The notes below the pieces were generated by a model, which worked only from the letters and a program-made list of their open reading frames with translations, had not been told where the DNA came from and made no database searches. DNA of 64,000 bases. Source: Taibaiella koreensis. Its GTDB lineage: Bacteria > Bacteroidota > Bacteroidia > Chitinophagales > Chitinophagaceae. Of the stretch, positions 3,870-29,981 are shown piece after piece. Location of the stretch: positions 992,001 through 1,056,000 of the forward strand of contig NZ_QVNU01000001.1 in NCBI RefSeq assembly GCF_003545715.1. The letters are read 5' to 3'. Numbering within the stretch: position 1 is the first letter of the stretch; each line of letters begins with the position of its first letter. The position numbers and the translations under genes are program-made.

Positions 3870-3890
3870 CCATCTGTGCCCGAGGTTACG

Positions 3891-11155: not shown

Positions 11156-11171
11156 GCCGGGAGGGACGATC

Positions 11172-11988: not shown

Positions 11989-11996
11989 TACTTTTG
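11989..11996 (+). promoter_or_regulatory. -7 element before the 96-residue unknown gene
   Basis: TACTTTTG matches TAnnTTTG and lies 17 bases before the ATG at 12014. The expected -33 TTTG is not obvious. Confidence 0.45.
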
Positions 11997-12013
11997 CTCC
12001 AAAAATAACATAG

Positions 12014-12304: not shown

Positions 12305-12331
12305 TTGAATAAGATAATCCGATAAGGAATA

Positions 12332-12362
12332 CGGCAGGATCTCATCCTGCCGCTTCTGTTTT
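12332..12362 (+). terminator. Intrinsic terminator after the 96-residue unknown gene
   Basis: CGGCAGGAT (12332-12340) and ATCCTGCCG (12344-12352) form a perfect 9-bp stem with a 3-base loop, followed by CTTCTGTTTT. Confidence 0.7.
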
Positions 12363-12374
12363 AAGCGCTTTCTT

Positions 12375-12842: not shown

Positions 12843-12865
12843 TCCCCGTTATAACCGTCGGCTAT

Positions 12866-13447: not shown

Positions 13448-13511
13448 CATAGATCATTTTCTGCGCCGGCTGCCGTGCCGAATTTTGTACGATAATCAAA
13501 AGCCCGAGCTC

Positions 13512-13964: not shown

Positions 13965-14052
13965 CGGAAGGGGAAGGTTAAGACAATTGTGTCAATGGTG
14001 TAACACAATGTTTGGGGCTATAGGAGCGTTGTATACCTGCTAAAACCTCAAT

Positions 14053-14847
14053 ATGCTTATTGTTCCGTTGCAGCCGGAAGACCTCGACCAAGTGGCGAAC
14101 TTAACACCCGAAGGCTGGGATAACCTGGTCCCGCATTTTACCTTTAACCTGCAGGCACCCTTTTGCTTCCCGCTAAAAGCGCTGCTGGACGGCGAGATCG
14201 CCGGCGTAGGCAATGTGATCTGTAATGCCGGTACGGCCTGGCTGGCGCAGATCGTGGTACATCCTTCCTTTCGCAATCGCGGGGTGGGGAAGGCGATCAC
14301 TTCGGCCCTGCTGGAGCAGGTCGACCGCCGACGTTTCCCGACCATACTGCTGGATGCTACCGATATGGGCTATCCCGTGTACCGCAGCCTGGGTTTTGAG
14401 ACCATTTCCCGCCATGTTCATTTTTCAGGTTCCTTATTGCCGGAGCATACGACATCTGCAATCGTTCCCTATGAGCCGGCTTATCGCATAGAAGTATTAC
14501 AACTCGATCGCAGGGCGACCGGCGAAAACAGGGAAGCTATTCTGGAGCCATACCTGGAGCAAGCTTATATTTACCGGGATGGCGATAAGGTAAGCGGAGT
14601 ATTTTTCCCTACCCTTTATCGTGGTCTCGTGGTGGTGGAAAATGTTACCGCGGGATTGACGCTGTTGCAGATGCGATTGGGCAGCAAAGCCCATGCCATG
14701 TTGCCTGAAGAGAATACGGTCGCACTGGCGGCACTGGAAGAATGGGGATTTAAGGAGCAGCGACGCTCACGACGCATGCGCCTTGGGCCCGCAGTGCCCT
14801 GGCAACCCCGCATGATCTTTAACGTGACCGGTGGCGCATTGGGCTAA
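14053..14847 (+). CDS. GNAT-family N-acetyltransferase with C-terminal extension
   Basis: A 264-residue protein. The N-terminal half is a GNAT domain: IAGVGNVICNAGTAWLAQIVVHPSFRNRGVGKAI with the acetyl-CoA loop RNRGVGK at 74-80 and YPVYRSLGFE closing the fold. The C-terminal ~120 residues (YIYRDGDKVSGVFFPTLYRGLVVVEN ... LLQMRLGSKAHAMLPEENTVALAALEEWGFK) look like a second, degenerate GNAT-type domain, a known two-domain architecture. The stop codon overlaps the stop of the convergent unknown gene by 4 bases. Confidence 0.85.
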   Translation: MLIVPLQPEDLDQVANLTPEGWDNLVPHFTFNLQAPFCFPLKALLDGEIAGVGNVICNAGTAWLAQIVVHPSFRNRGVGKAITSALLEQVDRRRFPTILLDATDMGYPVYRSLGFETISRHVHFSGSLLPEHTTSAIVPYEPAYRIEVLQLDRRATGENREAILEPYLEQAYIYRDGDKVSGVFFPTLYRGLVVVENVTAGLTLLQMRLGSKAHAMLPEENTVALAALEEWGFKEQRRSRRMRLGPAVPWQPRMIFNVTGGALG

Positions 14848-15242
14848 ACTGGCGCCACAGGCTGCCACTGGTGCTTCCCGGGATAATATTGCTGGCCGAA
14901 TTTAATGTGCAGCCGCTCATAATCGCTGGAGTCGCGCATCAGCAGTACCGGGAAGAGATACTGGCCATCGATGGTCAATACTTCTTGCTTGTCGTTAAGG
15001 AACAGGCAATACGTTTCACTATTGAAAAAACGTCCTTTTTTGATCGGGATGGGGATAGAGAGCTCCGTGGCCACACCCCTGACCGTATTTTCCGGCACAG
15101 TAGCGGCAATATCTCCCTTGTCCCGGGTATAGATGTGGAGCACAGCCGTTGTGTGCGCGATATGATCCGCATGCCGTTCGCTGATGTCAAAAGCTTCGCC
15201 GGCTATAGTGTAAAAGATTTCGCAGGGTACCTGGGACGTCAT
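14844..15242 (-). CDS. Unknown protein (132 residues)
   Basis: I do not recognise a family. The sequence has no signal peptide and no hydrophobic helix, and alternates short strands and polar loops (CEIFYTIAGEAFDISERHADHIAHTT, RFFNSETYCLFLNDKQEVLTIDGQYLFPVLLMRDSSDYERLH). Composition and codon use match the neighbouring genes, and the gene fits tail-to-tail with the GNAT gene with a 4-base overlap. It is the last gene before a long gene-poor region. Confidence 0.6.
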   Translation of the reverse strand: MTSQVPCEIFYTIAGEAFDISERHADHIAHTTAVLHIYTRDKGDIAATVPENTVRGVATELSIPIPIKKGRFFNSETYCLFLNDKQEVLTIDGQYLFPVLLMRDSSDYERLHIKFGQQYYPGKHQWQPVAPV

Positions 15243-15820
15243 ATACAGGTCGTTTGTGTGTTATAATAACCCTTATATCCACATAATGTTGCGTTTGCGC
15301 CATCCTGGCTTTTTAGGGCTTTAGCCGCAACTTTCCCTGTGGTTCCTGTTCTTGCAATATACCAACACCATTAGTTTATGAAGAGACCGCTGCTGTGTGC
15401 CGATTTTGCCGGTTCTATTCTACCTGCGGAGCGGCTACATGGGAAGGCAGTCCGGGCATCCCGTGAGCTAAGTAAATTCGCGGTGCAGGTAACAAAGCGC
15501 ACATACCCGCGCCGGAACCAGACCTGAATTGCTCACAGAAGTTAAAGGCGACCATAAAATGAGGCTTAAGAAGATCCCTGCAACCATCGGGTATCTCTAT
15601 ATCCTGACGTTTAGGGTTTTGTCGCTTTCTATTTGCGTTTATTTATAATTTGTTGAATTTTTAATAATTATGAATTATGATGAGCGTATTGTTTATTATC
15701 CCCTCTCTTTACGCTTGGCGAAAACCCGTAAATATTCACGCTTATTACCTGAAAATAACCACTTATAAACTAAATACTACCGTTTGTTAAATTTTGTACA
15801 TTAAATTGGAACATCCTTTT

Positions 15821-16062
15821 TACATTCGTAATGTATTTGATCCAAATACGTATTGTTTATTGAGTTAGTAGATTTTATGCAGTATTATTTTAAGTGCGGG
15901 TAATATTGCAACAGCCGGATTTTAACATTTTTCAAAATGATTAAAATCCGGAATCGATACCAACGGCCTCCGGGCGCAACATAATGTACTGACTGATTCC
16001 GAATCAGTACTATCACCAGAAAAAGGAAGGGTTATCCGGGGAAGGATAACCCTATTTCTTTT
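15821..16062 (+). ncRNA. Candidate structured non-coding RNA
   Basis: Five inverted repeats follow each other: TACATT/AATGTA (15821-15835), GTATTTG/CAAATAC (15833-15849), a long hairpin CCGGATTTTAA/TTAAAATCCGG (15915-15951, its loop able to pair further through CATTTT/AAAATG), GTACTGA/TCAGTAC (15986-16010) and GGGTTATCC/GGATAACCC (16029-16052) with a T-rich tail. The last looks like an intrinsic terminator although no protein gene precedes it. I see no good promoter match and do not recognise an Rfam family by eye. Confidence 0.35.
16029..16062 (+). terminator. Orphan intrinsic terminator
   Basis: Perfect 9-bp stem GGGTTATCC (16029-16037) / GGATAACCC (16044-16052), 6-base loop, then TATTTCTTTT. 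No protein-coding gene is found upstream for about 800 bases, so it probably ends an untranslated RNA. Confidence 0.6.
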
Positions 16063-16649
16063 GTATCATGCCTCGTCTTAAAAAAACGTTGGAATCAAGC
16101 GGAATGGGTAAAAGAGGGACCAAGCGGAAAAGGGATCAAGCGGAAAAGTTGGGGGGAGATGTGTCATGATGATCTTGTGAAAGCTTAGCGCTAAAGAGTG
16201 AGATAGACGGTAGCGTCAAGACTTAATCAAACAATTTTTAGGTGTGTGGGTATTGCGAGTCATCGTTATGGATGCCAGGCGAAGCCAAACTGCCAAAGAC
16301 GCGTGGCCGTCTGGCGTGGGGCAGCTATGGACAATACTCCTTCCTGAATACCAGATAGTGCTATATAGGAAACCAGCCAAAACAGGATCAATGAAAAAAG
16401 ATCCTTTTGGTTAATGATTAAACGTTGATCTATGATCCTATGTCCGGCAATGCTGCATTAAAGTTGCTATCTGTTTTCAAGCCCGGGTGCGCTGGCCACA
16501 AAAAAACAGCGGAGCATTGTTTTTTTGCCGCCTTTTTTCTTTCTTTTTTGGCGGAGCAAAAAAGAAAAAGATATTGACACCCAATAAAAATACAGGTAAG
16601 GCAAAGCGTGCTGACTAGTATTTGTAGATGTACAAAAGTTTGTTTCCTT

Positions 16650-16799
16650 TATCCGGATAGCCATTTACTTTTTTATCATCCCCCAGATATTTCGCTTGAT
16701 CCTAAAAGAGGGGGATCAAGTGTAACCGGGATTACGTTTTGGGCTGTTGTTATTTAGGAACAAATTGTGTCCTGTTTTCTATATCCGGATAGTCATTTA
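16650..16799. repeat. Two copies of an 18-base element TATCCGGATAGYCATTTA
   Basis: TATCCGGATAGCCATTTA at 16650-16667 and TATCCGGATAGTCATTTA at 16782-16799 differ at one base. Each starts with the perfect 10-bp palindrome TATCCGGATA. A related stretch, GCCGGATAGTCAGA, occurs near 52123 beside another gene end. Confidence 0.5.
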
Positions 16800-17075
16800 G
16801 AACAAATCAAATCGTTCTTCTCTGGAATATTGCTTAACCCTATGCATCGTTGGATTCAAAGGTTGGCCCAATCAATTTTTCCCGGGCTACTTCCGATAAA
16901 GTTGGAAATAAGAAGACGAATTGGATAAATTATGCTGGTCCCAATGCGGATATTAGCATTCTTTATACAATTGGTGAACGACTATTCATTATCTTTGTGC
17001 TTTCATGGTGATAGGGTTTATAGGGGCTGGCTCATTCTTGGGCTGGCTTTCCTTTTTTAACCCCATTTCTTACCT

Positions 17076-17330
17076 TCAGGGCAGCTGCAATTGCTGCCGG
17101 GTAATGCTGAGCAATTCCATGTCAATATCGGCCAGGGACAGATCCCCGTGATCGTTGAGAATTTGCTGGTATAAACCGTCCAATGCTTCCAGTGTTGAAG
17201 GGATGAAATCGTCGAAGTATACGACACGCTCCTGGGTATCTTCACTGCTGCCATCAAAACGAAATAAGGGTCCTTGTGCCAGCCTCGTGCTGATCGCCTG
17301 CTCCAGCAGACGGCTCACCTGCTCTTTCAT
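17076..17330 (-). CDS. Unknown small protein (84 residues)
   Basis: I recognise no family. From the ATG at 17330 the sequence MKEQVSRLLEQAISTRLAQ suggests an N-terminal helix, followed by an acidic central part (SSEDTQERVVYFDDFIPSTLEALDGLYQQILNDHGDLSLADIDMELLSI). A longer frame starting at 17372 exists but adds a less protein-like leader. No terminator or promoter is obvious. It lies alone in the gene-poor region, so it may be a real small gene or chance. Confidence 0.4.
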   Translation of the reverse strand: MKEQVSRLLEQAISTRLAQGPLFRFDGSSEDTQERVVYFDDFIPSTLEALDGLYQQILNDHGDLSLADIDMELLSITRQQLQLP

Positions 17331-17567
17331 ATTGCTCTTTTTATCGTTCCCGGGCATAACCTGCATTACCAAAACAGGGCCTGGATATTGGTTTTATCAT
17401 GCTGTTCTTGTGGGCAAAACAGGCTTCAAATGTACATTTCCGCGTGTGCAGCTGCAACCCCCATTTTCGTACCCCCTCTTTAGTGTCTTTTAAAAGTTTC
17501 ATTTTTGTTAAAATGTACCTGGAAAAGTTACTGTTTTTTACCTGTATTTTCCTGTCAATCTCCTTCT

Positions 17568-17575
17568 TACCTTTG
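17568..17575 (+). promoter_or_regulatory. -7 element before the 37-residue membrane protein
   Basis: TACCTTTG matches TAnnTTTG; a T-rich TATTTTCC lies at the -33 position instead of TTTG. The ATG of the small protein is 57 bases downstream. Confidence 0.45.
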
Positions 17576-17631
17576 TGATACTGAAAGCAATATCACCTGT
17601 TACCCGCTTGCAAAAGCAAAAACCACAGGAT

Positions 17632-17745
17632 ATGGATAAGGAATTTATTAACAGTAATCAGTTGATCGCCCTGTTAACAATAGGGGTCCTGGCCCTTATC
17701 GTTTGGCTGGCAGTTTACATTCCTATTTCGGAATTTACCATGTAG
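17632..17745 (+). CDS. Putative small single-pass membrane protein (37 residues)
   Basis: The frame starts MDKEFINSNQLIALLT and continues into one uninterrupted hydrophobic helix (about residues 10-32: LIALLTIGVLALIVWLAVYIPI), then SEFTM and a stop. A charged N-terminus followed by a single membrane helix is typical of real small membrane proteins. It has its own -7 box (17568-17575), and a long inverted repeat with a T tail (17848-17927) lies about 100 bases downstream, so promoter, gene and terminator are in order. No homologue is recognised; function unknown. Confidence 0.45.
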   Translation: MDKEFINSNQLIALLTIGVLALIVWLAVYIPISEFTM

Positions 17746-17847
17746 ATCTCCGAACGGATAAATTAGCCGCTTTGACCTGTCTGTAGCCCTTACGGTTACA
17801 GGTGATCGTTGTCGCCGTGCTCAGCTGATCTAAGAAATGAAATATAC

Positions 17848-17927
17848 ATTCCTGTCCCTGATACGGATTTGCCTCCTCTTTTTACGGTTCTTGAAGGGGT
17901 AAGGACGGTTAGGGACAGGAATTTTTT
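17848..17927 (+). terminator. Terminator-like inverted repeat with a long loop
   Basis: ATTCCTGTCCCT (17848-17859) and AGGGACAGGAAT (17911-17922) are perfect 12-bp arms separated by 51 bases and followed by six T. It may end the transcript of the small membrane protein at 17632-17745. Confidence 0.5.
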
Positions 17928-18451
17928 AATGGTGACAAGATCATAGGATGGCCGCCGCAGTGCCGTTGTCGCACTTCGTACATTGGAATTACGTAGCTAT
18001 CGTTGTCATTGAAGCGTTCACGGCCCGTCTTGTCCGGCAAGCCGGTCGGAACGCGCCAGCGGTCTGAACGGTGGCTGAAAGTATATAGCGTGTTTAAACT
18101 TGTTTTGTTTTGCTCCTCCGGGAGCAATTATGGTTTATCTGGTTTGTCTACACCTCTTTTGTCCCTATAGGACAATTTCAGGGCTGCTTATTTTTTTGCT
18201 ATAGACCTTAGTCCCTGCAGGCAATGTTATTAAACTAACCCATGGTTGTGTCCCCATAGCATTAAGGGCCTCTATGGCGCCCGCATCAATGAGCATGATA
18301 CAGTTCCGGTGTAGTCGGTCCTATGTTGAGCATTGATGTTCCCCATAGAACGAACACTTTTTGCCATGATCTGAGACTTTTGAATAATTGTTCCATTCCC
18401 TCAACTTTTCTGCTTGATCCCTGTCGTACTTCCGTGCACAGCTATATGCAA

Positions 18452-18483
18452 ACAAGCCCGCAAGATCATGCGGGCTTGTTTAA
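18452..18483. terminator. Bidirectional intrinsic terminator
   Basis: Perfect 11-bp stem ACAAGCCCGCA (18452-18462) / TGCGGGCTTGT (18469-18479) with a 6-base loop and short T runs on both sides. It closes the leftward T9SS gene that ends at 18504. Confidence 0.7.
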
Positions 18484-18503
18484 GCTTTATCCGGATGGCA
18501 GGT

Positions 18504-19343
18504 TTATTGTTTGATAAACGGCATCATGCCTTTGCCATACTTTAGAAAGTACATACCCGGGGCAAGCTGTTGCAGGTCATGCTTCTGCTCTTTGATGGAG
18601 AAAGCCGCTCTTACCTTTCCCGTTATGTCTATGATCTGTCCTTCATCCGATACCAGCTTTTCTTTACCGGTATATTCCCAATGCAGGGTTTGTTGTACAG
18701 GATTGGGGTAGATCTTCCAGGAAGCCCGGTCCATAACGGTTTCGTCGATCGAAGTGGTGGTTGCCTTTACATTAAAGTTGTCCACTGCGGCGGTAAACCA
18801 GTTCTGGTACGAAGTGTAATGAAAGGCAAGATAAGCCTGGCCGGTAGTCGGTGGGACAACGATATTGTTCGTATCCCTGAAGTTGTGATTGGCGCTGCTG
18901 TGCAGGCCAATGAGATTGGCCAGCAACACTTTTCCCGTGGCAGTTGCCGGGTCGGCGCTACCTTTGAGCAGGTACAGCTGTATGCTGTCGCCGGCCTGCA
19001 AGCCCATGATGGAGTAGACATTGATCTTGAAAGATACCTTGGCTCCTGTGCTCAAATTCAGGGAAGGCGAAACCGACCAGTCGTTGGTCAGTTGTGTCTC
19101 GACGCCGTCCATCGGGTATTGATGGAATAAGCAATCGGGCGCCGAAGGCGGAACGATAGCGCCGTCGGGCGCTTCAGAAAGATACTTCCACGAGTGAACA
19201 CTGTTGTAGCCTTTCCGGAAGGCTTGCCAGCCGGCCTTTTGCGCGGTGTTGTCGAAGTTGCTGGAATAAGGGAGCGGGGTTTGCGCTGATGCGGAAAGCC
19301 ATAGTCCGGTCACTACGCTAGTCAGGATAGCGATGCGTTTCAT
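18504..19343 (-). CDS. Secreted protein with T9SS type A sorting domain
   Basis: A 279-residue exported protein: N-terminal signal peptide (MKRIAILTSVVTGLWLSASAQ), a central jelly-roll-like region starting PLPYSSNFDNTAQKAGWQAF that resembles the choice-of-anchor J / cleaved-adhesin type, and a C-terminal type A sorting signal (WKIYPNPVQQTLHWEYTG ... DLQQLAPGMYFLKYGKG). T9SS cargo is moved across the outer membrane and the C-terminal domain is removed or anchored. The function of the central domain is unknown; binding to surfaces or glycans is possible. A bidirectional terminator follows the stop. Confidence 0.85.
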   Translation of the reverse strand: MKRIAILTSVVTGLWLSASAQTPLPYSSNFDNTAQKAGWQAFRKGYNSVHSWKYLSEAPDGAIVPPSAPDCLFHQYPMDGVETQLTNDWSVSPSLNLSTGAKVSFKINVYSIMGLQAGDSIQLYLLKGSADPATATGKVLLANLIGLHSSANHNFRDTNNIVVPPTTGQAYLAFHYTSYQNWFTAAVDNFNVKATTTSIDETVMDRASWKIYPNPVQQTLHWEYTGKEKLVSDEGQIIDITGKVRAAFSIKEQKHDLQQLAPGMYFLKYGKGMMPFIKQ

Positions 19344-19478
19344 GTTGCCTGTCTTTTTGTGGTTAGAGATTAAATTGGTTTAGGTCAATAGCCCGATAAG
19401 ACCCGGCCGCTTTCCGGAAACGTTGGCCTGCAGCGATTGCGATATCCTGCTGTTTTAAGTTTGCCCTGCAAAAGCAAA

Positions 19479-19498
19479 GGAGGGATAGATATCCCTCC
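19479..19498 (-). terminator. Terminator of the 610-residue T9SS gene
   Basis: GGAGGGAT and ATCCCTCC form a perfect 8-bp stem with a 4-base loop; on the minus strand it is followed by TTTGCTTTTG. It lies 55 bases beyond the stop of the leftward gene. Confidence 0.6.
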
Positions 19499-19553
19499 TG
19501 TAGTTGAACCAGGTTCAGCAATAGCTTCCGGCATCGCAAGCCCTGCGCTGCTT

Positions 19554-21386
19554 TTACTGCTTTACAAAAATACCTTTGGCCCGGGTGTGGTCGAATTGAA
19601 GTGTATAGTGATAAGCACCCGGAGCCAGCTGTCCCACCGGCACCGTGGCGTGGCCCTCATGGCCTATGGTTTGCTGCAATACGGTCCTGCCCATAACATC
19701 TACTATTGAAAGCCTGGCCTGGCCATAAGCCTGCTGCCATTCGAGATGGATTACCTGCGTAGCTGGGTTGGGGTACAGCGTCGCAGTTACAGCCGCTTTG
19801 GCTTCATCGATACCAGTAGGCTTATATACACCGTTGAAGCAATTGCCATCGTAGTCGGGAAAGAAATCATTGACCGAATAGCTGGCGCCGGATTGATAGA
19901 ACGGGAAGGGCATATTGGATTGCGGTCCGCCTATGCCTACCGGCCGCAGGAAGCTGCTGATACCGCAATCGTTTGTCCACAGGCAACCGGTAACCTCTCC
20001 TTTATCGGTAGTGCGTACAAATTTCATGTTCAGTGTATTGGCAGCGGTGTTCCATACCGGCGCTGACAAAACAATGTCCTTGGTCACGCTGTAATCGCGT
20101 ACGGCTGTTACCGGTGTCCAGGCATTATTGCTACGATAGCCGCCCAGGCTGAAATAGGAATTGGTAAGCGAGCTGCTACCTGTGCCGTTAAAGGAAAGTA
20201 TGGTATTCCAGAAAACGGGGTTTACATTAATGGTGCCGCCAGCCATACTGAGCTGCAGCATCGCAAGGAAAGGATTGATGTTGTTCATCGAAGTCGCCGG
20301 AAAGCTGTTGCAGCGGCGGTTGCTGGTAAAACCATTAAGAATTACATTCTGATCTGCCGAAGCATCGGGCAGCACGTTTATGCCCCAGGCATAATCATAG
20401 CTGTTGAATTGCCAGCGGCTATTGCCGGGATAAGGCACCAGCGCATTGTTGACGCCAGTAATGTGGACGAACATAGGCATGGCCGAAGGCTGGGGTAGTG
20501 TGTAATGGGCATACACATTTCCGAAGACATACAAATTACCCGTCGACAAATCCTCTGCTACGTCGAAGCTGCTCTCGTAGCCATAAGGATAAGGAACACC
20601 GAAATGAACCGCATAAATGTCATTAAGCGTAGCCGGATCGATCACCCGGTTCATCATCGGGCCGCCATTGACGCTACCACCTACCCAGATGCCGCTGCTC
20701 ACGGTCTTCATACGGGTAGCCATATCGTAGTCGTAAGAAGATATGACAGGACTGGAAAAATAGTGGACATCGATCACGGCATTGGCGTTCACATCAAACT
20801 TCAGCACAAAGCCTTCTTTTGGCGTGCTGAGATCGGGTGTGGAACCGGGACCGCCATTGGTTACGTAGCCGCAGATGAACAGCTCGGCATCGCTGTACTT
20901 AAGGCTGCTAAGCGGGTACATACTGGGATACGAAGGGTCGGCGCTATTGATCACCGTGCTCATCATCAAGTTGCCGGCCAGGTCCTGAGTAATGACCTCT
21001 ATACCATTGGGTCCACCGGTGAGCCCTTCTCTTCCGGCAACTGTAACCGAATTGCCATTGAAAAGGTGTACGCCTACAGGGCGCTGGTCATAGTCAGGAT
21101 CATCGACCACTTTGGCAGCGACCAGGTTGCCTATGTTATCAAAGTGCAGCCAATGCACAGCATTGTTATTTGCTGCCCCGGCATAATTGAACACGGTACC
21201 GGCCATCAGGTATTCGTCTCTGCCTTCAATGGCAGCGACGGCGTAATGCTTCTGATCGTAAGCATTGTAAAAAAGTGCATGCTCGCCGTCAAACTGCGCA
21301 TGGGCGGCGCTTAGCGTTAGGCTGGAAAGGAGGAGCAATGTGCCGTGGCGCCTGCGCCAGGCATTGCTGGATAGGAATGGATGCAT
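19554..21386 (-). CDS. Large secreted protein with T9SS type A sorting domain
   Basis: A 610-residue exported protein. The ATG at 21386 starts MHPFLSSNAWRRRHGTLLLL and gives a signal peptide ending AAHAQ; the frame is open further upstream but without a better signal. The body contains repeated strand-turn units with AAxEG/GxDEYLMAGTV-like and FIVGN-like elements typical of Bacteroidetes secreted beta-propeller-like proteins, but no catalytic motif. The C-terminus is a type A sorting domain: ATLYPNPATQVIHLEW ... LSIVDVMGRTVLQQ ... VGQLAPGAYHYTLQF. It is followed by a terminator and then the other T9SS type A gene. Confidence 0.85.
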   Translation of the reverse strand: MHPFLSSNAWRRRHGTLLLLSSLTLSAAHAQFDGEHALFYNAYDQKHYAVAAIEGRDEYLMAGTVFNYAGAANNNAVHWLHFDNIGNLVAAKVVDDPDYDQRPVGVHLFNGNSVTVAGREGLTGGPNGIEVITQDLAGNLMMSTVINSADPSYPSMYPLSSLKYSDAELFICGYVTNGGPGSTPDLSTPKEGFVLKFDVNANAVIDVHYFSSPVISSYDYDMATRMKTVSSGIWVGGSVNGGPMMNRVIDPATLNDIYAVHFGVPYPYGYESSFDVAEDLSTGNLYVFGNVYAHYTLPQPSAMPMFVHITGVNNALVPYPGNSRWQFNSYDYAWGINVLPDASADQNVILNGFTSNRRCNSFPATSMNNINPFLAMLQLSMAGGTINVNPVFWNTILSFNGTGSSSLTNSYFSLGGYRSNNAWTPVTAVRDYSVTKDIVLSAPVWNTAANTLNMKFVRTTDKGEVTGCLWTNDCGISSFLRPVGIGGPQSNMPFPFYQSGASYSVNDFFPDYDGNCFNGVYKPTGIDEAKAAVTATLYPNPATQVIHLEWQQAYGQARLSIVDVMGRTVLQQTIGHEGHATVPVGQLAPGAYHYTLQFDHTRAKGIFVKQ

Positions 21387-21599
21387 AGTCGATTGGTTTT
21401 GGTTTGGTTTTTGGGGAATAGCAAAAGAAGAGGCTTTGCCGGTAGCCTGAAACAAAGATTGTTGTTCCTTTTTAAAAATCCTATAGGTAAATGGCGCTGA
21501 TTTTAAGCGGCTTTTATCTATGTATATTTTGAATCCGGATAATTTCTGCCAGCAGAAGACTGGTGTAAATACCAGGAGGCGGTATTTTGGGCGATGTGC

Positions 21600-22547: not shown

Positions 22548-22568
22548 AATAAGGTTACCCTGTTTTCG

Positions 22569-22595
22569 TCCCTCCCCTCTAGGGAGGGATTTTTT
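22569..22595 (+). terminator. Intrinsic terminator after the VOC gene
   Basis: TCCCTCC (22569-22575) pairs with GGAGGGA (22583-22589), followed by six T. Confidence 0.7.
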
Positions 22596-22695: not shown

Positions 22696-24006
22696 ATGCA
22701 GTATAGTACCGAGCAGATTCTGCAAATGGCTCCCGATACCCCGGCAGCCAAGGCCGGACAGCAATTGGCAAGCAATGCCAAATGGTTGTTGAAGGCCGTT
22801 AATGAAAAGGCCTTATGGGGCGATTGCCAGGGCAGCGGCAAGACTCCTTACCGCACCATGGTCGACCTGGATAATATTGCCTTCAAATGCTCCTGTCCCA
22901 GCCGTAAATTTCCCTGCAAACATGGTCTTGGCCTGATGCTGCTCTACGTGCAGCAACCTGATGTATTTACAGTGGAAGCTTCGCTGCCCGATACGGTGGC
23001 CGAATGGCTGAGCCGGCGGGGCGCCAGGGAAGCGGCAAAGGACGAGAAGGTACAAAAACCCGTAGATGAGGCTGCTCAGGAAAAGCGGATACAGGCTCGT
23101 GAGAAAAAGGTGCTGGCCGGCATCGAAGAATTGCGCTATTGGCTTAAAGATGTTGTACGGACGGGCATCATGAATGTACCCCAGGATATCTACGGGTTCA
23201 ACCAAAGCATAACGGCGCGAATGGTCGATGCGCAGGCCGGCGGATTGGCCAACCAGCTGCGGCAGATCAACCGCATCGACTTTTTCCACGAAGGCTGGCA
23301 GCTGGCATTGCTGAAGCGGCTGTCTAAAATTTACCTCATCACAGAAGCCTTTGATCATAAGGAGCAGCTACCTCCGGAAATGGTGCAGGAGCTGCAGACC
23401 CTTATCGGCTGGACCCAAAGCAAGGAAGAGGTATTGCAGACTATGCCGGTCGAAGATACCTGGACGGTGCTCTCGATCACCTTAAGCGAAGAAGAACAGC
23501 TGCGCACAGAAAGGGTATGGCTATACGGTCATAACAGTAAGCGTTACGCCTTATTGCTGCAGTTCTATGCCGGCAACCAATCGCCGGAACATCTTTGGGT
23601 AAAGGGAATGCAGCTGCAGGCAGCGATCGCTTATTTTCCGGGTGCTGCACCATTGCGTGCGCTGATCAAAAGCCACCAGTCGCTCTCCGTGCAGCCGATC
23701 GATATCGAGGTTGCCGGCGAGGTTACACAAATCTATGAACAGGTATCCGGAGCCTTGAGCGTGAATCCTTTCCTGACCCAATTTCCCTTTATATTGAACC
23801 GGGGCACACTCACCCGGCACGAGGGCCACTGGTGGTTTAAAGATGCTGCGAACCAGGCCATACCCTTGGCCAACACTACCGGTGAATGCTGGCGCATGCT
23901 GGCTTTTAGCCAGGGGAAACCCTGCTCGGCTTTTGGCATCTATGAAGAAGAACGATTTGCCCTCCATACATTATGGTCGGATCATAAAAGCTGTTTTGTA
24001 TCATGA
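22696..24006 (+). CDS. SWIM zinc-finger protein
   Basis: A 436-residue protein. The SWIM motif CxC-x6-CxH is intact: C65, C67, C74 and H76 in FKCSCPSRKFPCKHGLGL. SWIM domains bind zinc and are thought to contact DNA or protein. The segment after it, about residues 110-140 (KVQKPVDEAAQEKRIQAREKKV), is highly charged and probably coiled coil, followed by a mostly helical region of unknown type. It is the first gene of the cluster; its end overlaps the DUF5691 gene start by 4 bases (ATGA), implying translational coupling and a 1:1 partnership. Confidence 0.88.
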   Translation: MQYSTEQILQMAPDTPAAKAGQQLASNAKWLLKAVNEKALWGDCQGSGKTPYRTMVDLDNIAFKCSCPSRKFPCKHGLGLMLLYVQQPDVFTVEASLPDTVAEWLSRRGAREAAKDEKVQKPVDEAAQEKRIQAREKKVLAGIEELRYWLKDVVRTGIMNVPQDIYGFNQSITARMVDAQAGGLANQLRQINRIDFFHEGWQLALLKRLSKIYLITEAFDHKEQLPPEMVQELQTLIGWTQSKEEVLQTMPVEDTWTVLSITLSEEEQLRTERVWLYGHNSKRYALLLQFYAGNQSPEHLWVKGMQLQAAIAYFPGAAPLRALIKSHQSLSVQPIDIEVAGEVTQIYEQVSGALSVNPFLTQFPFILNRGTLTRHEGHWWFKDAANQAIPLANTTGECWRMLAFSQGKPCSAFGIYEEERFALHTLWSDHKSCFVS

Positions 24007-25469
24007 TCGAACAAGAGATACTGAAAGCCGGTCTGCTGGGGACCGATAAATACATGCCGCTTCCGGTACCCGCGCTCGAAGATATAGGCGCCCGTATAAC
24101 GGCGCAGAACGATGGTAAGGAAGACCAGTTCCTGAAGCTGGCTGCGCTTACGCTGCTGTACCGGGAATGTGGCGCCACGCCGCAGGAGGTGACAGCCACA
24201 TTGCCTCCCTGCCCAGGTGAACCGGCGCAACCCGCCGGTAAAAGAACGGCTATGTTGCTGGAGCAGGCTTTGTCGGGCAAGGAAGAAGTGCTGTTGCACT
24301 ACCTTATCTTTCGCTGTAATCAAAGAAATGAAGTGGCGCCTTCAGCACTGGCGCCCGCACTGCTGGATAAGGCGCTAGAGCGACGTAAGACGGCCAGGTC
24401 CATAGTACAGGTATGCGGCGTGGCAGGGCAATGGCTGTGCAGCCTGAACGAAGACTGGGCAGTTTTGCTGGCAGATGCTGTGCCCGAAGAAGATATATGG
24501 GAGACCGGAAGCCTTGAACGCAGGAAAGAATACCTGACCGGTCTGAGACAGCGTGACCCCCAGGCGGCATTACAATTGCTGGCAGCATCAATAGGACAGG
24601 AAAATGCCGCGGCGCGCCAGGCATTCACCGAAGTGCTCCGTATCCGTCTTTCGCTGCAGGATGAATCGCTCCTCGAGCAGTTATTGAAAGATAAAAGCCA
24701 GAAGGTAAAAGAACTGGCCCTATCACTGCTGCAACAACTACAGGGTTCGGCGATCAACAGGCACTATCTCGACCAGGTATTGCGCATGGTCCGGATCAAA
24801 GAAGAACGCCACCTGCTGATTACTAAGAAAAAAGTACTGGCGATTGACGAGGCCGCCATGCCTGATGAGGCTATCTTTAAGACGGGTATCGCTAAAGTCA
24901 GCTCTGAAAAAGGCGTGAGCGATGGCTTGTACCTGTTGGGTCAGCTGCTCGCCTGCATTGATCCGGCAGTGTTGGCGGCGGCTTTGCACAGTACCGACCA
25001 GGAACTGATCAACTTACTGTTACTGCATAAGGAAGCGGCCACGCTGCAACCTTATCTCACCGAAAGTGTAGTCCGGTTTGGAAATGCCGCCTGGGCGCGA
25101 ACCTTGCTGCAGGCTAAGGTCGCCGATATCCGCTTACTGGATGCCTTGCCGGCCGGAGACCGCGTCGCCTTCTATGAGGCATTCCTTACGGCGCAGCATG
25201 TGGCGCCCCTGTTGGATCACTTGCTGGATGACGACTATACCTCCTTACCTACAACGCTTGCCGGAGCCTTGCTGGATCAGCTTTCCAGGCAGCCTTACAT
25301 AATCCAGCAGCAAGGATACCAGCGGCTGGCCCTGCATTTGCCCCCGGAAGTATATGATATGCTAAAAGGCCACCAGGACAAGCCCGGTGACGATTACCAG
25401 GCCAGGTACTTTAAGGCGCAGGCCATGGAAATGCTGCGTCAGATGGACTTTAAAAAAATGATCGATTAA
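24003..25469 (+). CDS. DUF5691-family helical-repeat protein
   Basis: A 488-residue protein that I place in DUF5691 from its length, sequence style and position next to a SWIM gene. It starts MIEQEILKAGLLGTDKYMPLP, the usual opening of this group. The body is nearly all alpha-helical with HEAT-like units (for example DESLLEQLLKDKSQKVKELALSLLQQL), suggesting a scaffold or adaptor. No catalytic motif is visible. Start overlaps the SWIM stop; the MoxR gene begins 16 bases after its stop. Confidence 0.75.
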   Translation: MIEQEILKAGLLGTDKYMPLPVPALEDIGARITAQNDGKEDQFLKLAALTLLYRECGATPQEVTATLPPCPGEPAQPAGKRTAMLLEQALSGKEEVLLHYLIFRCNQRNEVAPSALAPALLDKALERRKTARSIVQVCGVAGQWLCSLNEDWAVLLADAVPEEDIWETGSLERRKEYLTGLRQRDPQAALQLLAASIGQENAAARQAFTEVLRIRLSLQDESLLEQLLKDKSQKVKELALSLLQQLQGSAINRHYLDQVLRMVRIKEERHLLITKKKVLAIDEAAMPDEAIFKTGIAKVSSEKGVSDGLYLLGQLLACIDPAVLAAALHSTDQELINLLLLHKEAATLQPYLTESVVRFGNAAWARTLLQAKVADIRLLDALPAGDRVAFYEAFLTAQHVAPLLDHLLDDDYTSLPTTLAGALLDQLSRQPYIIQQQGYQRLALHLPPEVYDMLKGHQDKPGDDYQARYFKAQAMEMLRQMDFKKMID

Positions 25470-25485
25470 AAACGCCCTATACGAT

Positions 25486-26568
25486 ATGTCACAGAACATT
25501 TTGCGCCTTTCGGCCGAGCAGCAATTTGCAGAAGAACTGGAAGAGCTGAAGAAACAGGATAAATTGAAAAGACCGGAGCGTTGGCAGTTGTCGCCGCAAG
25601 CCGTGGTGACCTACCTTACCGGTGGTAAGCTGGACAATGGTTTTACCGTGTCTCCGAAATATATTGGTAACCGCCGCCTTATGGAGATTGCCGTGGCTAC
25701 GCTCACTACCGACCGGGCCCTGCTCCTGTACGGGCTGCCGGGTACTGCTAAATCCTGGGTGTCGGAACACATGACCGCCGCCGTCTCAGGCGATTCTTCC
25801 ATGGTGATCCAGGGTACCGCCGGCACCAGTGAAGAATCGGTGCGCTACGGCTGGAACTATGCCCGTTTGCTGTCTGCCGGGCCGGTGCCGGATGCGATCG
25901 TGGAAACGCCGGTGATGCGTGGCATGAAGGAAGGCAAGATCGTCCGTATCGAAGAGCTTACCCGCATTGGTTCCGATGTGCAGGACACGCTGATCACGAT
26001 ACTGTCGGAAAAAATGTTGCCCATCCCGGAGTTGAACAGCCAGGTACAGGCAGTGAAGGGCTTTAACATAATTGCTACTGCAAACAACCGGGATAAGGGT
26101 GTGAACGACCTTTCCAGCGCGCTGAAGCGCCGGTTCAATACGGTGATCCTGCCCGTGCCCGATACCATGGAAGAAGAAGTGGAGATCGTACAACAGCGGG
26201 TAGCCAGCTATAGTAAAAGCATGGAGCTGCCGGTGGAAAAGCCTATCCTTGAAGAGATACGGCGCATTGTGACGGTCTTCCGCGAGCTGCGTAACGGCGT
26301 ATCTTCCGATGGCAAAACGAAGCTGAAATCGCCTTCAGGTACGCTGAGTACTGCAGAGGCGATATCGGTAATGAACAGCGGTCTTTCGCTGGCCTGCCAT
26401 TTCGGCGACGGTAGCCTTAAGGCCGATGATATCGCCAGCGGCCTTATCGGAGCCGTGATCAAGGATCCGGTGCAGGATAAGATCGTTTTCCAGGAATACA
26501 TGGAGACCGTATTGAAGCAGCGGGACGGCTGGAAGGATATATACCGTGCCTGTCGCGATATCGTTTAA
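25486..26568 (+). CDS. MoxR-type AAA+ ATPase
   Basis: A 360-residue AAA+ ATPase of the MoxR kind, which usually act as chaperone-like remodelling motors with VWA proteins. The P-loop is GLPGTAKS (83-90), where alanine replaces the usual second-last glycine of GxxxxGK[ST]. The Walker B region reads KIVRIEELTR (151-160), with two glutamates where DE is usual. Sensor 1 is in FNIIATANNRDKG (193-205), and arginines follow in SALKRRF (211-217). Lys and Ser of the P-loop are intact, so ATP binding is likely. The VWA gene of this cluster should encode its partner. Confidence 0.93.
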   Translation: MSQNILRLSAEQQFAEELEELKKQDKLKRPERWQLSPQAVVTYLTGGKLDNGFTVSPKYIGNRRLMEIAVATLTTDRALLLYGLPGTAKSWVSEHMTAAVSGDSSMVIQGTAGTSEESVRYGWNYARLLSAGPVPDAIVETPVMRGMKEGKIVRIEELTRIGSDVQDTLITILSEKMLPIPELNSQVQAVKGFNIIATANNRDKGVNDLSSALKRRFNTVILPVPDTMEEEVEIVQQRVASYSKSMELPVEKPILEEIRRIVTVFRELRNGVSSDGKTKLKSPSGTLSTAEAISVMNSGLSLACHFGDGSLKADDIASGLIGAVIKDPVQDKIVFQEYMETVLKQRDGWKDIYRACRDIV

Positions 26569-26609
26569 ACGGAAATCTGCCTTGATATTTACCTTGTAAA
26601 AATGAGAAC

Positions 26610-28838
26610 ATGCCCCTTCACTTACTTGGTATCCGTCATCATGGACCAGGCTCATCCCGGCATGTGCTGGATGCGCTGCATGACCTTAAGCCGGATATTA
26701 TACTGATAGAAGGGCCGCCCGAAGGCGAAGCAATGCTTTCCTGGGTAGCCCATCAGGATATGAAGCCTCCTGTGGCCTTGCTGGCCTATGTGCCCGATCA
26801 GCCGCAGCAGGCCGTCTTCTATCCTTTTACTTCCTTTTCTCCCGAATGGAATGCGATACGCTATGGCCTGGAGCATAAGATCCCGGTGCGTTTTATCGAT
26901 ATGCCGTTGGTGCATCAACTAGCTGGTGAAGCGCCTTCGGCCGGGGAAGAGGAGACGGTTCCCGAAGCAATCGCTGAAAAAGAAGAAGAACAGGATGTAG
27001 CTGCGATCCGCCGCAATCCCATTGCCTGGCTGGCCGATATTGCCGGTTTTGACGATGCGGAAGAATGGTGGGAGCAGCAATTTGAGATAGCACATCATGC
27101 AACCGGCGTATTTGATGCCGTCACCGAATCCATGACCGCGTTACGTGACCATCTTCTGCCCGAAAAAAGCCGGCGCGAGGTCATCAGAGAGGCCTTTATG
27201 CGGCGTGCCATCCGTACGGCGCAGAAGGAAATGTACGCCGATATTGTCGTGGTCTGCGGCGCCTGGCACGTGCCGGCGTTAAGCAATATGCCCGCGCAAA
27301 AAGAAGATGATGCTTTGCTGAAAGGCCTGCCCAAAATAAAAATAGAGACTACCTGGATCCCCTGGACCAATGACCGGCTGTCTTTTGAAAGCGGCTATGG
27401 CGCAGGCCTGGAATCGCCCGGCTGGTACCAGCATCACTGGACCCATCCCGAAGATAATGGCGCGGTATGGCTGGCGCATACGGCCAGGGTATTCCGGCGC
27501 AACCAGGTGGATGTTTCTGCTGCGCATATCATAGAAGCCGTACGGCTATCCCAGGCACTGGCTGCGCTTCGCGGGATAGCGCGACCCGGGCTTAAGGAAT
27601 TCAACGAAGCCACACAGGCAGTTATGTGCATGGGTGACAACATACCGATGCAATTGATACGGAAAGAGCTGATCGTAGGCCACGATATGGGCGCCGTACC
27701 CGAAGGCACTCCTCAGGTGCCGCTGCAACGGGACTTTGAGCAACAAGCCAAAAAGCTGCGGCTTAAGATCAGCAACGAGCCCAGAAGCCTTAAGCTTGAC
27801 CTGCGTGAAGACCAGGACCTGCAAAAGAGTGTGCTGCTACACCGGCTGCTGCTGCTGAACATAGGCTGGGGACAAACGCAGTATACCAGTGGGAAAGGCA
27901 CCTTCAAAGAAGAATGGACTTTATGCTGGTTCCCCGAGTTGACCATCCAACTACTGGAGAAGGCGCCCTGGGGCAATACGATCGGTTTTGCGGCCAATGC
28001 TTACCTGGAGCATGCTGCCGTGCAATGTACCCGCCTGGACGAGATCACCGGTCTGGTAAGTAAGGCGCTGCCTGCAGGGTTGCACAGCGGTATCCGTATG
28101 GCTATGAAGCGTATGGATGAGCTGGCGGCAGGTACTTCCGATACGAGCCTGCTGATGGGGGCCTTTATCCCGCTGGTAAAGCTAAGCCGCTACGGTAATG
28201 TACGCCGTACCGATCTTGAAACCGTGAACATTATCCTGCAATCGGTTTTCTATCGTATCACCGCAGGGCTGCCCATGACCTGCTTAGGTATCGATGAGGA
28301 GCAGGCAGCAGTATTGGCCGATAAGATCAGGGAAGTGAACCAGTCGGTGCTCCTACTGGACGACGCAGTGCTGAAGGATGCCTGGAAGGATACCGTCTTT
28401 GCGATCACAGGACAAACTCAGGCAGCGCCTGAAGTTCAGGGCTGCTGCTGCAAGATACTATACGATGCCGGAACGTTGGACGAAGCGGCGACGGCGCAGG
28501 CGTTCAGCCGGGCTTTGTCGCCGGGCAGCGAACCGGCTTTTGCCGCGCAATGGCTGGAAGGATTTCTCAAAGATGCGGCCACCGTGCTTATCCTGGACGA
28601 TAAGATCTGGCATATTGTTCATAGCTGGGTGCTTTCCCTGGACGGTGATCTGTTTGTTACGGTGCTGCCTTTGCTGCGCCGGACTTTCTCGGTCTACGGC
28701 AATGTCGAAAAAAGAAAGATTGCCGACAGGGCCCGTCATGCCGGAACCGGCGCTACGCATGTCTTGACTGTTGCCGGTTTCGACGAAGCACGCGCTGCAA
28801 GGATATTACCTGTATTGACCCGGTTGATGGGTCTGTAA
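26610..28838 (+). CDS. DUF5682-family protein with TraB/ChaN/EreA-like motifs
   Basis: A 742-residue cytoplasmic protein without signal peptide, assigned to DUF5682 by its opening LLGIRHHGPGSSRHV and its context. Three motifs recall the TIKI/TraB, ChaN and erythromycin-esterase superfamily: histidines H10-H11 (GIRHHGPG), E34 in KPDIILIEGPPEGE, and H220 in DIVVVCGAWHVPAL; these could form a metal or acid/base site. A charged linker (about 105-135) and a large helical C-terminal half follow. It lies 41 bases after the MoxR gene and 12 bases before the VWA gene. Enzymatic activity is my inference, not known. Confidence 0.75.
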   Translation: MPLHLLGIRHHGPGSSRHVLDALHDLKPDIILIEGPPEGEAMLSWVAHQDMKPPVALLAYVPDQPQQAVFYPFTSFSPEWNAIRYGLEHKIPVRFIDMPLVHQLAGEAPSAGEEETVPEAIAEKEEEQDVAAIRRNPIAWLADIAGFDDAEEWWEQQFEIAHHATGVFDAVTESMTALRDHLLPEKSRREVIREAFMRRAIRTAQKEMYADIVVVCGAWHVPALSNMPAQKEDDALLKGLPKIKIETTWIPWTNDRLSFESGYGAGLESPGWYQHHWTHPEDNGAVWLAHTARVFRRNQVDVSAAHIIEAVRLSQALAALRGIARPGLKEFNEATQAVMCMGDNIPMQLIRKELIVGHDMGAVPEGTPQVPLQRDFEQQAKKLRLKISNEPRSLKLDLREDQDLQKSVLLHRLLLLNIGWGQTQYTSGKGTFKEEWTLCWFPELTIQLLEKAPWGNTIGFAANAYLEHAAVQCTRLDEITGLVSKALPAGLHSGIRMAMKRMDELAAGTSDTSLLMGAFIPLVKLSRYGNVRRTDLETVNIILQSVFYRITAGLPMTCLGIDEEQAAVLADKIREVNQSVLLLDDAVLKDAWKDTVFAITGQTQAAPEVQGCCCKILYDAGTLDEAATAQAFSRALSPGSEPAFAAQWLEGFLKDAATVLILDDKIWHIVHSWVLSLDGDLFVTVLPLLRRTFSVYGNVEKRKIADRARHAGTGATHVLTVAGFDEARAARILPVLTRLMGL

Positions 28839-28850
28839 AACAATTAGAAT

Positions 28851-29981
28851 ATGGAACAAGATGCCATAAAACGCTGGCGGCTGATATTGGGTAAAGAAAC
28901 GCACGAAGAGTTGTCCTGTTCGCTGAGTAAGGAAGAAACAGGCATCGATAAAACACTTGAAGCCTTGTACAATGCCGGTAAGAAAGGCGGCCTGGGGCCC
29001 TCTTCTCCCAATGTCGCCCGCTGGCTGGGCGATGTGCGGGAGTATTTCCCGGCCTCCGTAGTAAAGGTGATCCAGCAGGATGCCCTGAACCGCCTCAACC
29101 TTACGGCGATGCTTACCGAGCCCGAAATGCTCGAAACAGTGGTGCCCGATGTGCACCTGGTAGCCAACCTGATGACGCTGGGGAAAATGATACCGGAGAA
29201 AACAAAGGCTACTGCCCGGCAGGTGGTCAGGACGGTAGTTGACGAGCTTATCAGAAAGCTTTCGGGCCCCACACAACAGGCCATCGCTGGGACGCTGAAC
29301 CGCTCTGTCCGTAACCTCAGGCCCCGTCACAACGAGATCAACTGGAGCGAGACTATCCGCCGGAACCTGAAGCACTACCAGTCAGAATATAACACTATCA
29401 TTCCCGAAACAAGGGTTGGTTTCGGCCGCAAGCGGAAAGCCATGAAAGATGTGGTGCTGTGTATCGATCAAAGCGGATCGATGGGCTCTTCAGTTATCTA
29501 TTCGGGCATATTTGGCGCTGTAATGGCTTCTATTCCTGCGATACAGACCCGCATGGTGGTATTCGATACCGCCGTAGCCGATCTTACCGAGGAGCTGGAC
29601 GATCCTGTGGACCTGCTATTCGGCGTACAACTGGGTGGTGGTACCGACATTCATAAAGCCCTCAGCTATTGCCAGCAGCTCATCAGCCGTCCGCTGGATA
29701 CCGTGCTTGTACTCATTACCGATCTGTACGAAGGCGGTAACCAGGAAGAGATGCGCAAAAAGGCTCTGGAGCTGGTCAACAGCGGGGTACAGATCGTTAC
29801 CCTGCTGGCCTTGAATGATGACGGTGCGCCGGCTTATGATCACGGTAACGCCGCTTTCCTGGCAGGGATCGGAGTCCCGGTCTTTGCCTGTACGCCCGAT
29901 AAATTTCCTGATCTGATGGCCGCTGCTTTGAGTAAACAGGATATTGCCGGATGGGCAGGCCGTAACGATATCAAGCTGTAA
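28851..29981 (+). CDS. VWA-domain protein, MoxR partner
   Basis: A 376-residue protein. A helical N-terminal region (about 1-195) precedes a von Willebrand factor A domain (about 200-370) with a complete metal-ion-dependent adhesion site: D206, S208 and S210 (CIDQSGSMG), T265 (GGGTDIHKA) and D291 (LITDLYEGG). No signal peptide or membrane helix, so it acts in the cytoplasm. MoxR and VWA proteins typically form a motor/adaptor pair. Last gene of the five-gene cluster. Confidence 0.92.
   Translation: MEQDAIKRWRLILGKETHEELSCSLSKEETGIDKTLEALYNAGKKGGLGPSSPNVARWLGDVREYFPASVVKVIQQDALNRLNLTAMLTEPEMLETVVPDVHLVANLMTLGKMIPEKTKATARQVVRTVVDELIRKLSGPTQQAIAGTLNRSVRNLRPRHNEINWSETIRRNLKHYQSEYNTIIPETRVGFGRKRKAMKDVVLCIDQSGSMGSSVIYSGIFGAVMASIPAIQTRMVVFDTAVADLTEELDDPVDLLFGVQLGGGTDIHKALSYCQQLISRPLDTVLVLITDLYEGGNQEEMRKKALELVNSGVQIVTLLALNDDGAPAYDHGNAAFLAGIGVPVFACTPDKFPDLMAAALSKQDIAGWAGRNDIKL

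Follow-up and report, generated by a model that had tools for sequence, protein, structure and literature searches.

A five-gene YehL-subfamily MoxR locus of Taibaiella koreensis that pairs a MoxR–VWA core with a putative TIKI-type hydrolase

The window analyzed here is a 64,000-nucleotide stretch of Taibaiella koreensis DNA (contig NZ_QVNU01000001.1, positions 992,001 to 1,056,000). The ORF list and Pfam searches placed five + strand genes at 22696–29981, encoding in 5'→3' order SWIM, DUF5691, MoxR/AAA_5, DUF5682, and VWA_CoxE proteins, with intergenic gaps of -4, 16, 41, and 12 bases. The initial annotation had described tightly packed genes behind a terminator and ahead of a DUF1905 gene; the ORF coordinates, a located stem-loop with a T tract, and Pfam matches for all five proteins and the 3' neighbor (DUF1905, E 4.5e-21) agreed with this description. 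The scan for terminator-like sites as a whole found 13, against 10.4 in shuffles.

22568..22590, + strand: intrinsic-terminator-like stem-loop preceding the operon, 9 pairs, then TTTTTT
22696..24006, + strand: SWIM-family protein, 436 aa (Pfam SWIM 8e-05, 22.5 bits, cut-off 19.6)
24003..25469, + strand: DUF5691 helical-repeat protein, 488 aa (PF18944, E 9.4e-80)
25486..26568, + strand: YehL-type MoxR AAA+ ATPase, 360 aa (AAA_5, 2.7e-33)
26610..28838, + strand: DUF5682 protein, 742 aa (PF18934, 1.1e-250)
28851..29981, + strand: VWA_CoxE protein, 376 aa (VWA_CoxE, 2.4e-47)

The MoxR protein contained a Walker A motif, a Walker B-like acidic pair, a sensor, and an arginine finger. The VWA protein carried the full MIDAS that had been ascribed to it, and Pfam detected no effector domain in it. 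The ATPase motifs and the MIDAS are together the sequence features that characterize a MoxR–VWA chaperone pair.

25732-25755, + strand: MoxR Walker A, GLPGTAKS, conserved residues
25951-25956, + strand: MoxR Walker B-like E156-E157, conserved, reading E-E and not D-E
29466-29480, + strand: VWA MIDAS DQSGS, D206, S208, and S210 invariant in 12 VWA sequences
29643-29645, + strand: VWA MIDAS T265, nearly invariant in the 12 sequences
29721-29723, + strand: VWA MIDAS D291, invariant in the 12 sequences

Comparison with E. coli K-12 revealed homology of three of the genes to yehL, yehM, and yehP, which is absent from the initial annotation. The MoxR protein was 37% identical to YehL (225 bits), whereas its score against RavA, the second MoxR protein of this strain, was 29.6 bits, which places its core nearer to YehL; DUF5682 was 27.5% identical to YehM (E 3e-39) and the VWA protein 34% identical to YehP (E 3e-74). 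The SWIM protein had no significant blastp match to YehQ, and in profile comparison it matched the YehQ group only marginally (P 0.0017, probability 16%). Since MoxR, DUF5682, and VWA are homologous to YehL, YehM, and YehP, the operon is, as judged from sequence, a YehL-subfamily MoxR locus and not an orphan, in a variant with DUF5691. The YehL-type partner set of VWA, DUF5682, and SWIM proteins is present, the SWIM homology being marginal, and the three homologs stand in the same order and are likewise closely packed in yehL-yehM-yehP-yehQ. The SWIM gene is last in E. coli K-12, whereas it is first in the window operon, and the E. coli locus has a DUF4132 gene (yehI) upstream and lacks DUF5691, whereas Pfam found DUF5691 and no DUF4132 in the window operon; we treat the DUF4132 partner as the mark of a variant, not as defining for the subfamily. 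RavA–ViaA likewise combines a MoxR ATPase with a VWA partner but differs by the bit scores given above, and it is not known to have a DUF5682 or DUF5691 partner. Among the complete E. coli genomes searched, 5162 of 5426 carried at least 80% of yehLMPQ, and the literature examined contained no function for these genes.

To what extent the five families belong together was judged from 62 Bacteroidota genomes picked by presence or absence of DUF5682. The results showed that the MoxR, VWA, and SWIM proteins each occurred in 31/31 genomes with intact DUF5682 and in 0/31 without it, and that DUF5691 occurred in 29/31 (undetected in two) versus 0/31 (Fisher 4e-18 and 2e-15, respectively, kinship ignored). 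Full MoxR matches reached at least 459 bits, and other MoxR matches in these genomes at most 49. The genes were partly or wholly dispersed in 22 of the 31 DUF5682-bearing genomes, so that linkage is not required for their co-inheritance; in two genomes (G600 and G486) all five lay on one contig at least 37 kb apart. In a phylum sample (n=296), DUF5682 was found in seven genomes and DUF5691 in eight at E 0.001 (six above the cut-off), with an overlap of seven. By annotation, Deinococcus and Rhizobium repeat the gene order of the operon in full and Methylosinus repeats it as far as a broken VWA gene; own HMMs showed it in Nonomuraea. Chance clustering is ruled out by this recurrence across phyla and by the co-inheritance of unlinked copies. 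Thus, the proposal of a single recurrent unit made up of the five families was borne out, and the rare co-occurrence named as its refutation was not observed.

A pattern scan of contigs from 84,980 species, which detects only identical peptides and does not amount to a census, returned one relative, L010, with a full operon at 58% identity. The neighborhood sample comprised one genome per genus from 108 genomes, together with second copies in G382, G586, and G578 and eight more same-family genomes; the fragment G350 (53 positions) was excluded. Counts were made on the 71 proteins of more than 650 residues, and short contigs can hide partners. For 24 DUF5682 genes that had few partners or none in their vicinity, the most widespread other family was near five, and among 92 flank ORFs (up to three on each flank of 18 full operons) there was one similar pair.

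The initial annotation had suggested that SWIM and DUF5691 recognize a target. An essential role of the SWIM finger as target reader is not supported, as the SWIM-family match lacked the finger in 6/31 genomes, three of the short ORFs having been inspected.

about 22885-22941, + strand: SWIM finger C65xC67...C74xH76, with C65, C67, C74, and H76 invariant in 10 aligned sequences

The DUF5691 protein, presumed to be a scaffold or adaptor, matched HEAT repeats at just E 0.38 (Pfam). Profile comparison gave no signal of homology with DUF4132 (P 0.25) or with the 637-aa gene at the equivalent place in Fusobacterium (P 0.42). DUF5691 and DUF4132 occurred together in five operons, with DUF4132 after the VWA gene in four (L089, L090, L337, and L344) and within the operon in L096, which shows that they are not simple substitutes for each other.

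The idea that DUF5682 may be the effector enzyme gained strength from motifs in its N-terminal part and from weak profile matches that are suggestive of a hydrolase. The motif order GxxH, Glu, GxxH, which DUF5682 has in common with the TIKI superfamily (TraB/PrgY, ChaN, erythromycin-esterase-like), was present, and R193-E194-x-x-M197 precedes the second GxxH, with R193, E194, and M197 in 71/71.

about residues 1-290 of the DUF5682 protein, + strand: predicted TIKI-superfamily hydrolase domain (weak profile comparisons)
26628..26639, + strand: first GxxH, G7-I-R-H10, H10 in 69/69 with a letter there (71 aligned)
26709..26711, + strand: conserved Glu E34, in 70/70 with a letter there (71 aligned)
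27258..27269, + strand: second GxxH, G217-A-W-H220, G217 and H220 in 71/71

When residues 1-300 of DUF5682 were compared by hhalign, ChaN matched at P 0.013, TraB at P 0.039, and Ere at P 0.0079; the second GxxH region was aligned in register, and the probabilities were about 1-6%, below normal significance cut-offs. Against a panel of 24 other families, some of them clusters resembling antisense ORFs, the three TIKI families tested took ranks 1-3 (P 0.0061, 0.048, and 0.065; next 0.10). Under identical settings TraB and ChaN, an accepted related pair, matched at P 0.0069, and the accepted pair ChaN–Ere at P 7e-08, far better than any DUF5682 match; the TraB–Ere match (P 0.048) seems out of register, so a P near 0.05 is weak. 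No PDB relative was found by sequence, no TIKI family was among the Pfam matches of 15 members, and, in contrast with the TIKI superfamily, DUF5682 has a long C-terminal region in which no known domain is recognized. The TIKI active site is described as built of His and Glu in passages of PMC6254334. One TIKI enzyme has a 2His/2Glu motif whose first Glu corresponds to Ile8 in DUF5682; the TraB protein of L246 has Thr there. From the motifs and the weak profile matches we infer that the N-terminal domain of DUF5682 may be a hydrolase of the TIKI/ChaN/erythromycin-esterase type, whose putative active site would include H10, E34, and H220.

We propose, with confidence that is evenly balanced, that the products of the operon work together as a single YehL-type machine, in which a MoxR–VWA motor loads or activates a TIKI-type DUF5682 hydrolase and the DUF5691 and SWIM proteins act as adaptors. 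By analogy with established MoxR–VWA systems, the MoxR ATPase would form a ring and the VWA protein would link the ring to its client through the MIDAS; ATP-driven remodeling would then load a target into the DUF5682 hydrolase or switch the hydrolase on, and the DUF5691 helical-repeat and SWIM-family proteins would place the complex on the target. More tentatively, this could be a widespread and previously unrecognized ATP-driven machine, present in nearly all E. coli, in which a MoxR–VWA ring feeds or activates a TIKI peptidase/esterase (DUF5682/YehM) on alternative scaffolds, DUF5691 or DUF4132, in damage repair and not phage defense. Known MoxR–VWA systems serve mostly in protein folding or cofactor loading, and a hydrolase would be added to them if the TIKI assignment is true. 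Moreover, the partners of yehLMPQ are now defined and its candidate active site is open to mutagenesis in a laboratory strain, which makes an old gap in the best-studied bacterium directly testable.

It is unlikely that the MoxR–VWA pair is instead a cofactor chaperone, one that supplies a client enzyme with a metal or cofactor or activates it there, whether the client is DUF5682 or an external metalloenzyme. CoxD–CoxE and NorQ–NorD do combine a CoxE-family VWA protein, to which family Pfam assigns the window VWA, with a MoxR-class AAA+ ATPase, but the window operon differs from them in that no client metalloenzyme gene was seen beside it (ORFs and Pfam), and the single similar pair among the flank ORFs speaks against a constant neighbor gene. 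Iron insertion into cNOR is reported to require NorQ/NorD (PMC9976466), yehM mutations are reported under copper selection (PMC12409786), and citing passages give the DUF4132/MolR family an old molybdate-utilization label; however, the DUF4132 gene of D. radiodurans was induced by DdrO depletion with no change in moeA and moeB (PMC8533742). That gene, DRA0166, is there described as DdrO-controlled and mitomycin-induced, which favors another explanation, that the complex recognizes damaged DNA/RNA or a stalled nucleoprotein through its SWIM, DUF4132, and solenoid parts and then clears it. A passage of PMC4245954 adds that molR1 deletion is synthetically sick with lepA. In Deinococcus taeanensis a DdrO-box match with two mismatches lies 21-35 bp before the operon and is the only one at no more than two mismatches in 120,196 bp of the plasmid; at no more than three mismatches L029 has three, a number reached by 22/100 shuffles, so only the position of the box speaks for DdrO control. 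With presumed LexA-type patterns, nothing consistent was seen across 11 loci, an exact site near the first gene occurring in 0/10 other loci and a one-mismatch match in three. KptA, NADAR, and Macro genes adjoin the L089 operon and two RlaP genes the L058 operon, but RNA-repair neighbors were present in just two of the 26 full Bacteroidota operons examined. The RNA-repair/NAD gene row of L089 is no more than a lead, being absent from eight further operons, including that of the same-genus G635. In this specific form the damage explanation appears unlikely.

A function in phage defense or in conflict between bacteria, like that of the vWA-MoxR ternary systems, the speculative role first suggested beside stress, is very unlikely. 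The window operon has in common with the vWA-MoxR-VMAP/iSTAND systems (PMC7159879) a MoxR–VWA core with further conserved components, but its further component is DUF5682, and Pfam found no VMAP, iSTAND, or effector domain in the five proteins. Term searches of PMC7159879 turned up none of YehL, SWIM, DUF5682, TIKI, and TraB. A bpMoxR match (1.8e-05, below its cut-off), a patchy distribution within one genus, and restriction genes after the operon on an Iodobacter plasmid are in line with conflict; PADLOC on the 92 flank ORFs matched 33 families at 1e-8, with type I restriction, IetAS, Hhe, Mokosh, DrmC, and others among the 25 listed (raw counts, at most two ORFs each). These flank matches make a conflict role slightly more likely. 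Against this, PADLOC on the five proteins gave weak MoxR matches only (best 9e-4), yehLMPQ is near-universal in E. coli, the window VWA has no effector domain by Pfam, and neither of two scans of viral contigs (single protein; alignment) found a confirmed relative. The recurrent unit was supported and the enzyme idea strengthened, the finger as essential reader is not supported, and the conflict role is not favored; for the proposed machine, phage defense is a less likely role than maintenance or damage response. Of the 50,697 records in the phage collection, one carried MoxR–DUF5682–VWA; it is an unverified scaffold labeled 'Bacteriophage sp.' and is probably bacterial DNA.

All five genes of the operon were confirmed as open reading frames on the same strand, spaced by -4, 16, 41 and 12 bases as given in the initial annotation, and the terminator placed there before the operon corresponds to a terminator-like stem. 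Pfam matched the five proteins to SWIM, DUF5691, AAA_5 (MoxR), DUF5682 and VWA_CoxE; the upstream flank holds a glyoxalase-like gene and the downstream flank a DUF1905 gene. The features considered are:

19554-21455, strand opposite to the operon: large protein carrying a type IX secretion sorting domain (Por_Secre_tail)
22568-22590: terminator-like stem before the operon
22696-29981, + strand: five-gene operon
25951-25956, + strand: Walker B-like position of the MoxR protein

The last position reads Glu-Glu in each of the 12 aligned members of the MoxR group and also in E. coli YehL. For the five proteins, NCBIfam matches were far under the cut-offs and concerned only MoxR and VWA, and PADLOC gave weak matches to MoxR alone (IetA 9e-4, others up to 0.02).

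The initial annotation regarded the five families as one recurring set, with rare co-occurrence named beforehand as a refuting outcome; the families were found to co-occur in the genomes checked, and the claim stands. Of 296 genomes sampled from the phylum, apparently the same ones in both searches, 7 contained DUF5682 and 8 contained DUF5691 at a threshold of E 0.001; 7/7 DUF5682 genomes carried both, and 2 of the 8 DUF5691 matches (genomes G216 and G071) were under the curated cut-off. DUF5682 was present in 108 of 348 genomes of the window's order, and in two of four within the window's own genus. The co-inheritance test covered 62 genomes, 31 with an intact DUF5682 gene and 31 without, the latter including G015, which has a broken copy only. 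Full MoxR matches and the SWIM protein were each found in 31/31 genomes with DUF5682 and 0/31 without. The full MoxR matches scored 459 bits or more; no other MoxR match, including those in genomes of the DUF5682-less group, exceeded 49 bits. The same distribution held for VWA, bar a remnant interrupted by three stop codons in G015, and DUF5691 was found in 29/31 and 0/31, respectively, the G216 match being under the cut-off and G411 and G535 giving no match. The Fisher values (4e-18 for 31/31 vs 0/31, 2e-15 for 29/31 vs 0/31) overstate the significance, because related genomes are not independent; even so, presence and absence contrast within the window's own genus. At the G015 locus (L051, about 9158-10598) the DUF5682 gene has decayed and contains stop codons, and the VWA remnant lies close by; the system is undergoing loss in this relative.

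The strongest argument for a joint function is that the set is conserved without linkage. Among 35 full-length DUF5682 genes of f18, the other large family of the window's order, 20 had no partners within 9 kb, 11 had some and 4 had all, some contigs in this count being short; in the window's family 10/10 such genes, and 8/8 further ones, lay in full operons. By coordinates, the whole set was in one place in 0/22 f18 genomes tested. One contig carries all five genes in G600 and in G486, each 37 kb or more from the others; other f18 genomes kept pairs or triplets together. Two genomes (G578 and G586) each carried a full operon plus a lone DUF5682 gene, and the lone copies did not all fall in one supported clade of the tree.

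The E. coli K-12 locus comprises yehL (MoxR), yehM, yehP (VWA) and yehQ (SWIM), and yehI, a DUF4132 gene, lies upstream of them; YehM is labelled a DUF5682 protein in other E. coli records. By blastp, the window MoxR, DUF5682 and VWA proteins matched YehL (37 % identity, E 1e-74), YehM (27.5 %, E 3e-39) and YehP (34 %, E 3e-74), whereas the SWIM protein and DUF5691 had no significant match in the yeh locus. Compared at profile level, the SWIM protein was marginally similar to the YehQ group (P 0.0017, probability 16 %), and the window MoxR scored 29.6 bits against RavA. Passages of PMC3893208 list seven MoxR subfamilies, YehL among them, and two E. coli K-12 MoxR proteins, one being YehL. The window system is thus a variant of the locus of a named MoxR subfamily, and this analysis found no function for that locus. 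Three papers named two or more of yehL, yehM, yehP, yehQ and yehI, each incidentally, as judged by title; neither DUF5682 nor DUF5691 occurred among the literature matches listed, and a term search of PMC7159879 returned no YehL, SWIM or DUF5682.

The window-type order (SWIM–DUF5691–MoxR–DUF5682–VWA) was annotated in Deinococcus, Rhizobium and, with a broken VWA gene, Methylosinus; our own HMMs found it in Nonomuraea and Methylobacterium, and in Hymenobacter with SWIM and DUF5691 fused in one ORF. The Methylosinus VWA gene (L031 11220-12388) is split over three overlapping ORFs, the other four being annotated as whole genes. The E. coli-type order (DUF4132–MoxR–DUF5682–VWA–SWIM) occurred in E. 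coli, Iodobacter and Proteus, and in Agrobacterium, but there with DUF4132 within the operon. Streptomyces has a DUF4132 gene, MoxR, a longer DUF5682 and then a weakly SWIM-like protein, with no VWA match found. A 637-aa protein occupies the DUF5691 place in Fusobacterium; no relationship between it and DUF5691 was detected. Since DUF4132 and DUF5691 co-occur in five loci (L089, L090, L096, L337 and L344), the two architectures are not clean alternatives. The SWIM-family match began near position 132, past the finger, in G486, G426, G411, G535, G598 and G216, and the SWIM-family ORFs of L241, L242 and L245 were short to match. The constant part of the protein is the C-terminal region, not the finger, which may be encoded elsewhere in finger-less genomes.

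DUF5682 had no PDB sequence relative at useful E-values, and none of 15 members matched the TIKI families in Pfam. Among 71 aligned sequences, R193, E194, M197, G217 and H220 (numbering of the window protein) were present in all 71, H10 in 69/69 with a letter there and E34 in 70/70. According to passages of PMC6254334, the TIKI active site is formed by His and Glu residues. In hhalign comparisons of residues 1-300, ChaN (P 0.013) and TraB (0.039) were the top two of 32, the best control reaching 0.08; for the erythromycin-esterase-like family (Ere), P was 0.0079 and the GxxH region aligned with the R-D-x-x-M...H region of Ere. ChaN, Ere and TraB also ranked 1-3 (0.0061, 0.048, 0.065; next 0.10) among 24 non-self families of a panel built from fetched loci by clustering on similarity alone, in which these three had been fetched deliberately and the rest were bystander families, some apparently antisense ORFs. 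The reference pairs gave 0.0069 (TraB–ChaN), 0.048 (TraB–Ere, apparently out of register) and 7e-08 (ChaN–Ere). Judged by the invariant motifs and these weak profile matches, DUF5682 is probably a hydrolase of the TIKI superfamily; the enzyme prediction for the system is new and testable.

The E. coli locus matched in 5301 of 5426 complete genomes, at 5320 chromosomal and 2 plasmid places; its near-universal, chromosomal presence there (at least 80 % covered in 5162/5426) argues against an accessory defence system in this species. In the flanks of 18 full operons, PADLOC picked up scattered defence-type ORFs (type I restriction, IetAS, Hhe, Mokosh, DrmC, others), at most two per family among the matches listed, which may be no more than background. 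A link to the damage response is a lead. Passages of PMC8533742 describe the D. radiodurans DUF4132 protein DRA0166 as mitomycin-induced through IrrE/DdrO. With the consensus from the same passages, a DdrO-box-like palindrome with 2 mismatches was found 21-35 bp before the first gene in Deinococcus taeanensis (L029 4739-4753), the sole match of such quality in 120,196 bp of plasmid; at 3 mismatches, matches in L029 were no more numerous than in shuffles. LexA-type boxes gave nothing consistent at 10 other loci. Immediately upstream of the SWIM gene in L089 (genome G512; 11040-19752, - strand) lie KptA, NADAR, Macro, NAMPT-like and phosphoesterase genes, and an Rv2179c-like exonuclease stands between MoxR and DUF5682; two adjacent RlaP-family (RNA-repair polymerase-beta) genes lie just upstream of the SWIM gene in L058 (G220; 2221-4127). 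The L089-type row was not beside the operon in the same-genus genome G635, and neither set of neighbours recurred in other operons examined.

On an E. coli IncF plasmid (L039 2673-23411), two IS26 copies bracket the segment from yehI to mlrA, which is adjacent to drug-resistance genes. MoxR-DUF5682-VWA also occurs on a faecal scaffold (L038) that is entered, unverified, as 'Bacteriophage sp.' and is probably bacterial DNA.
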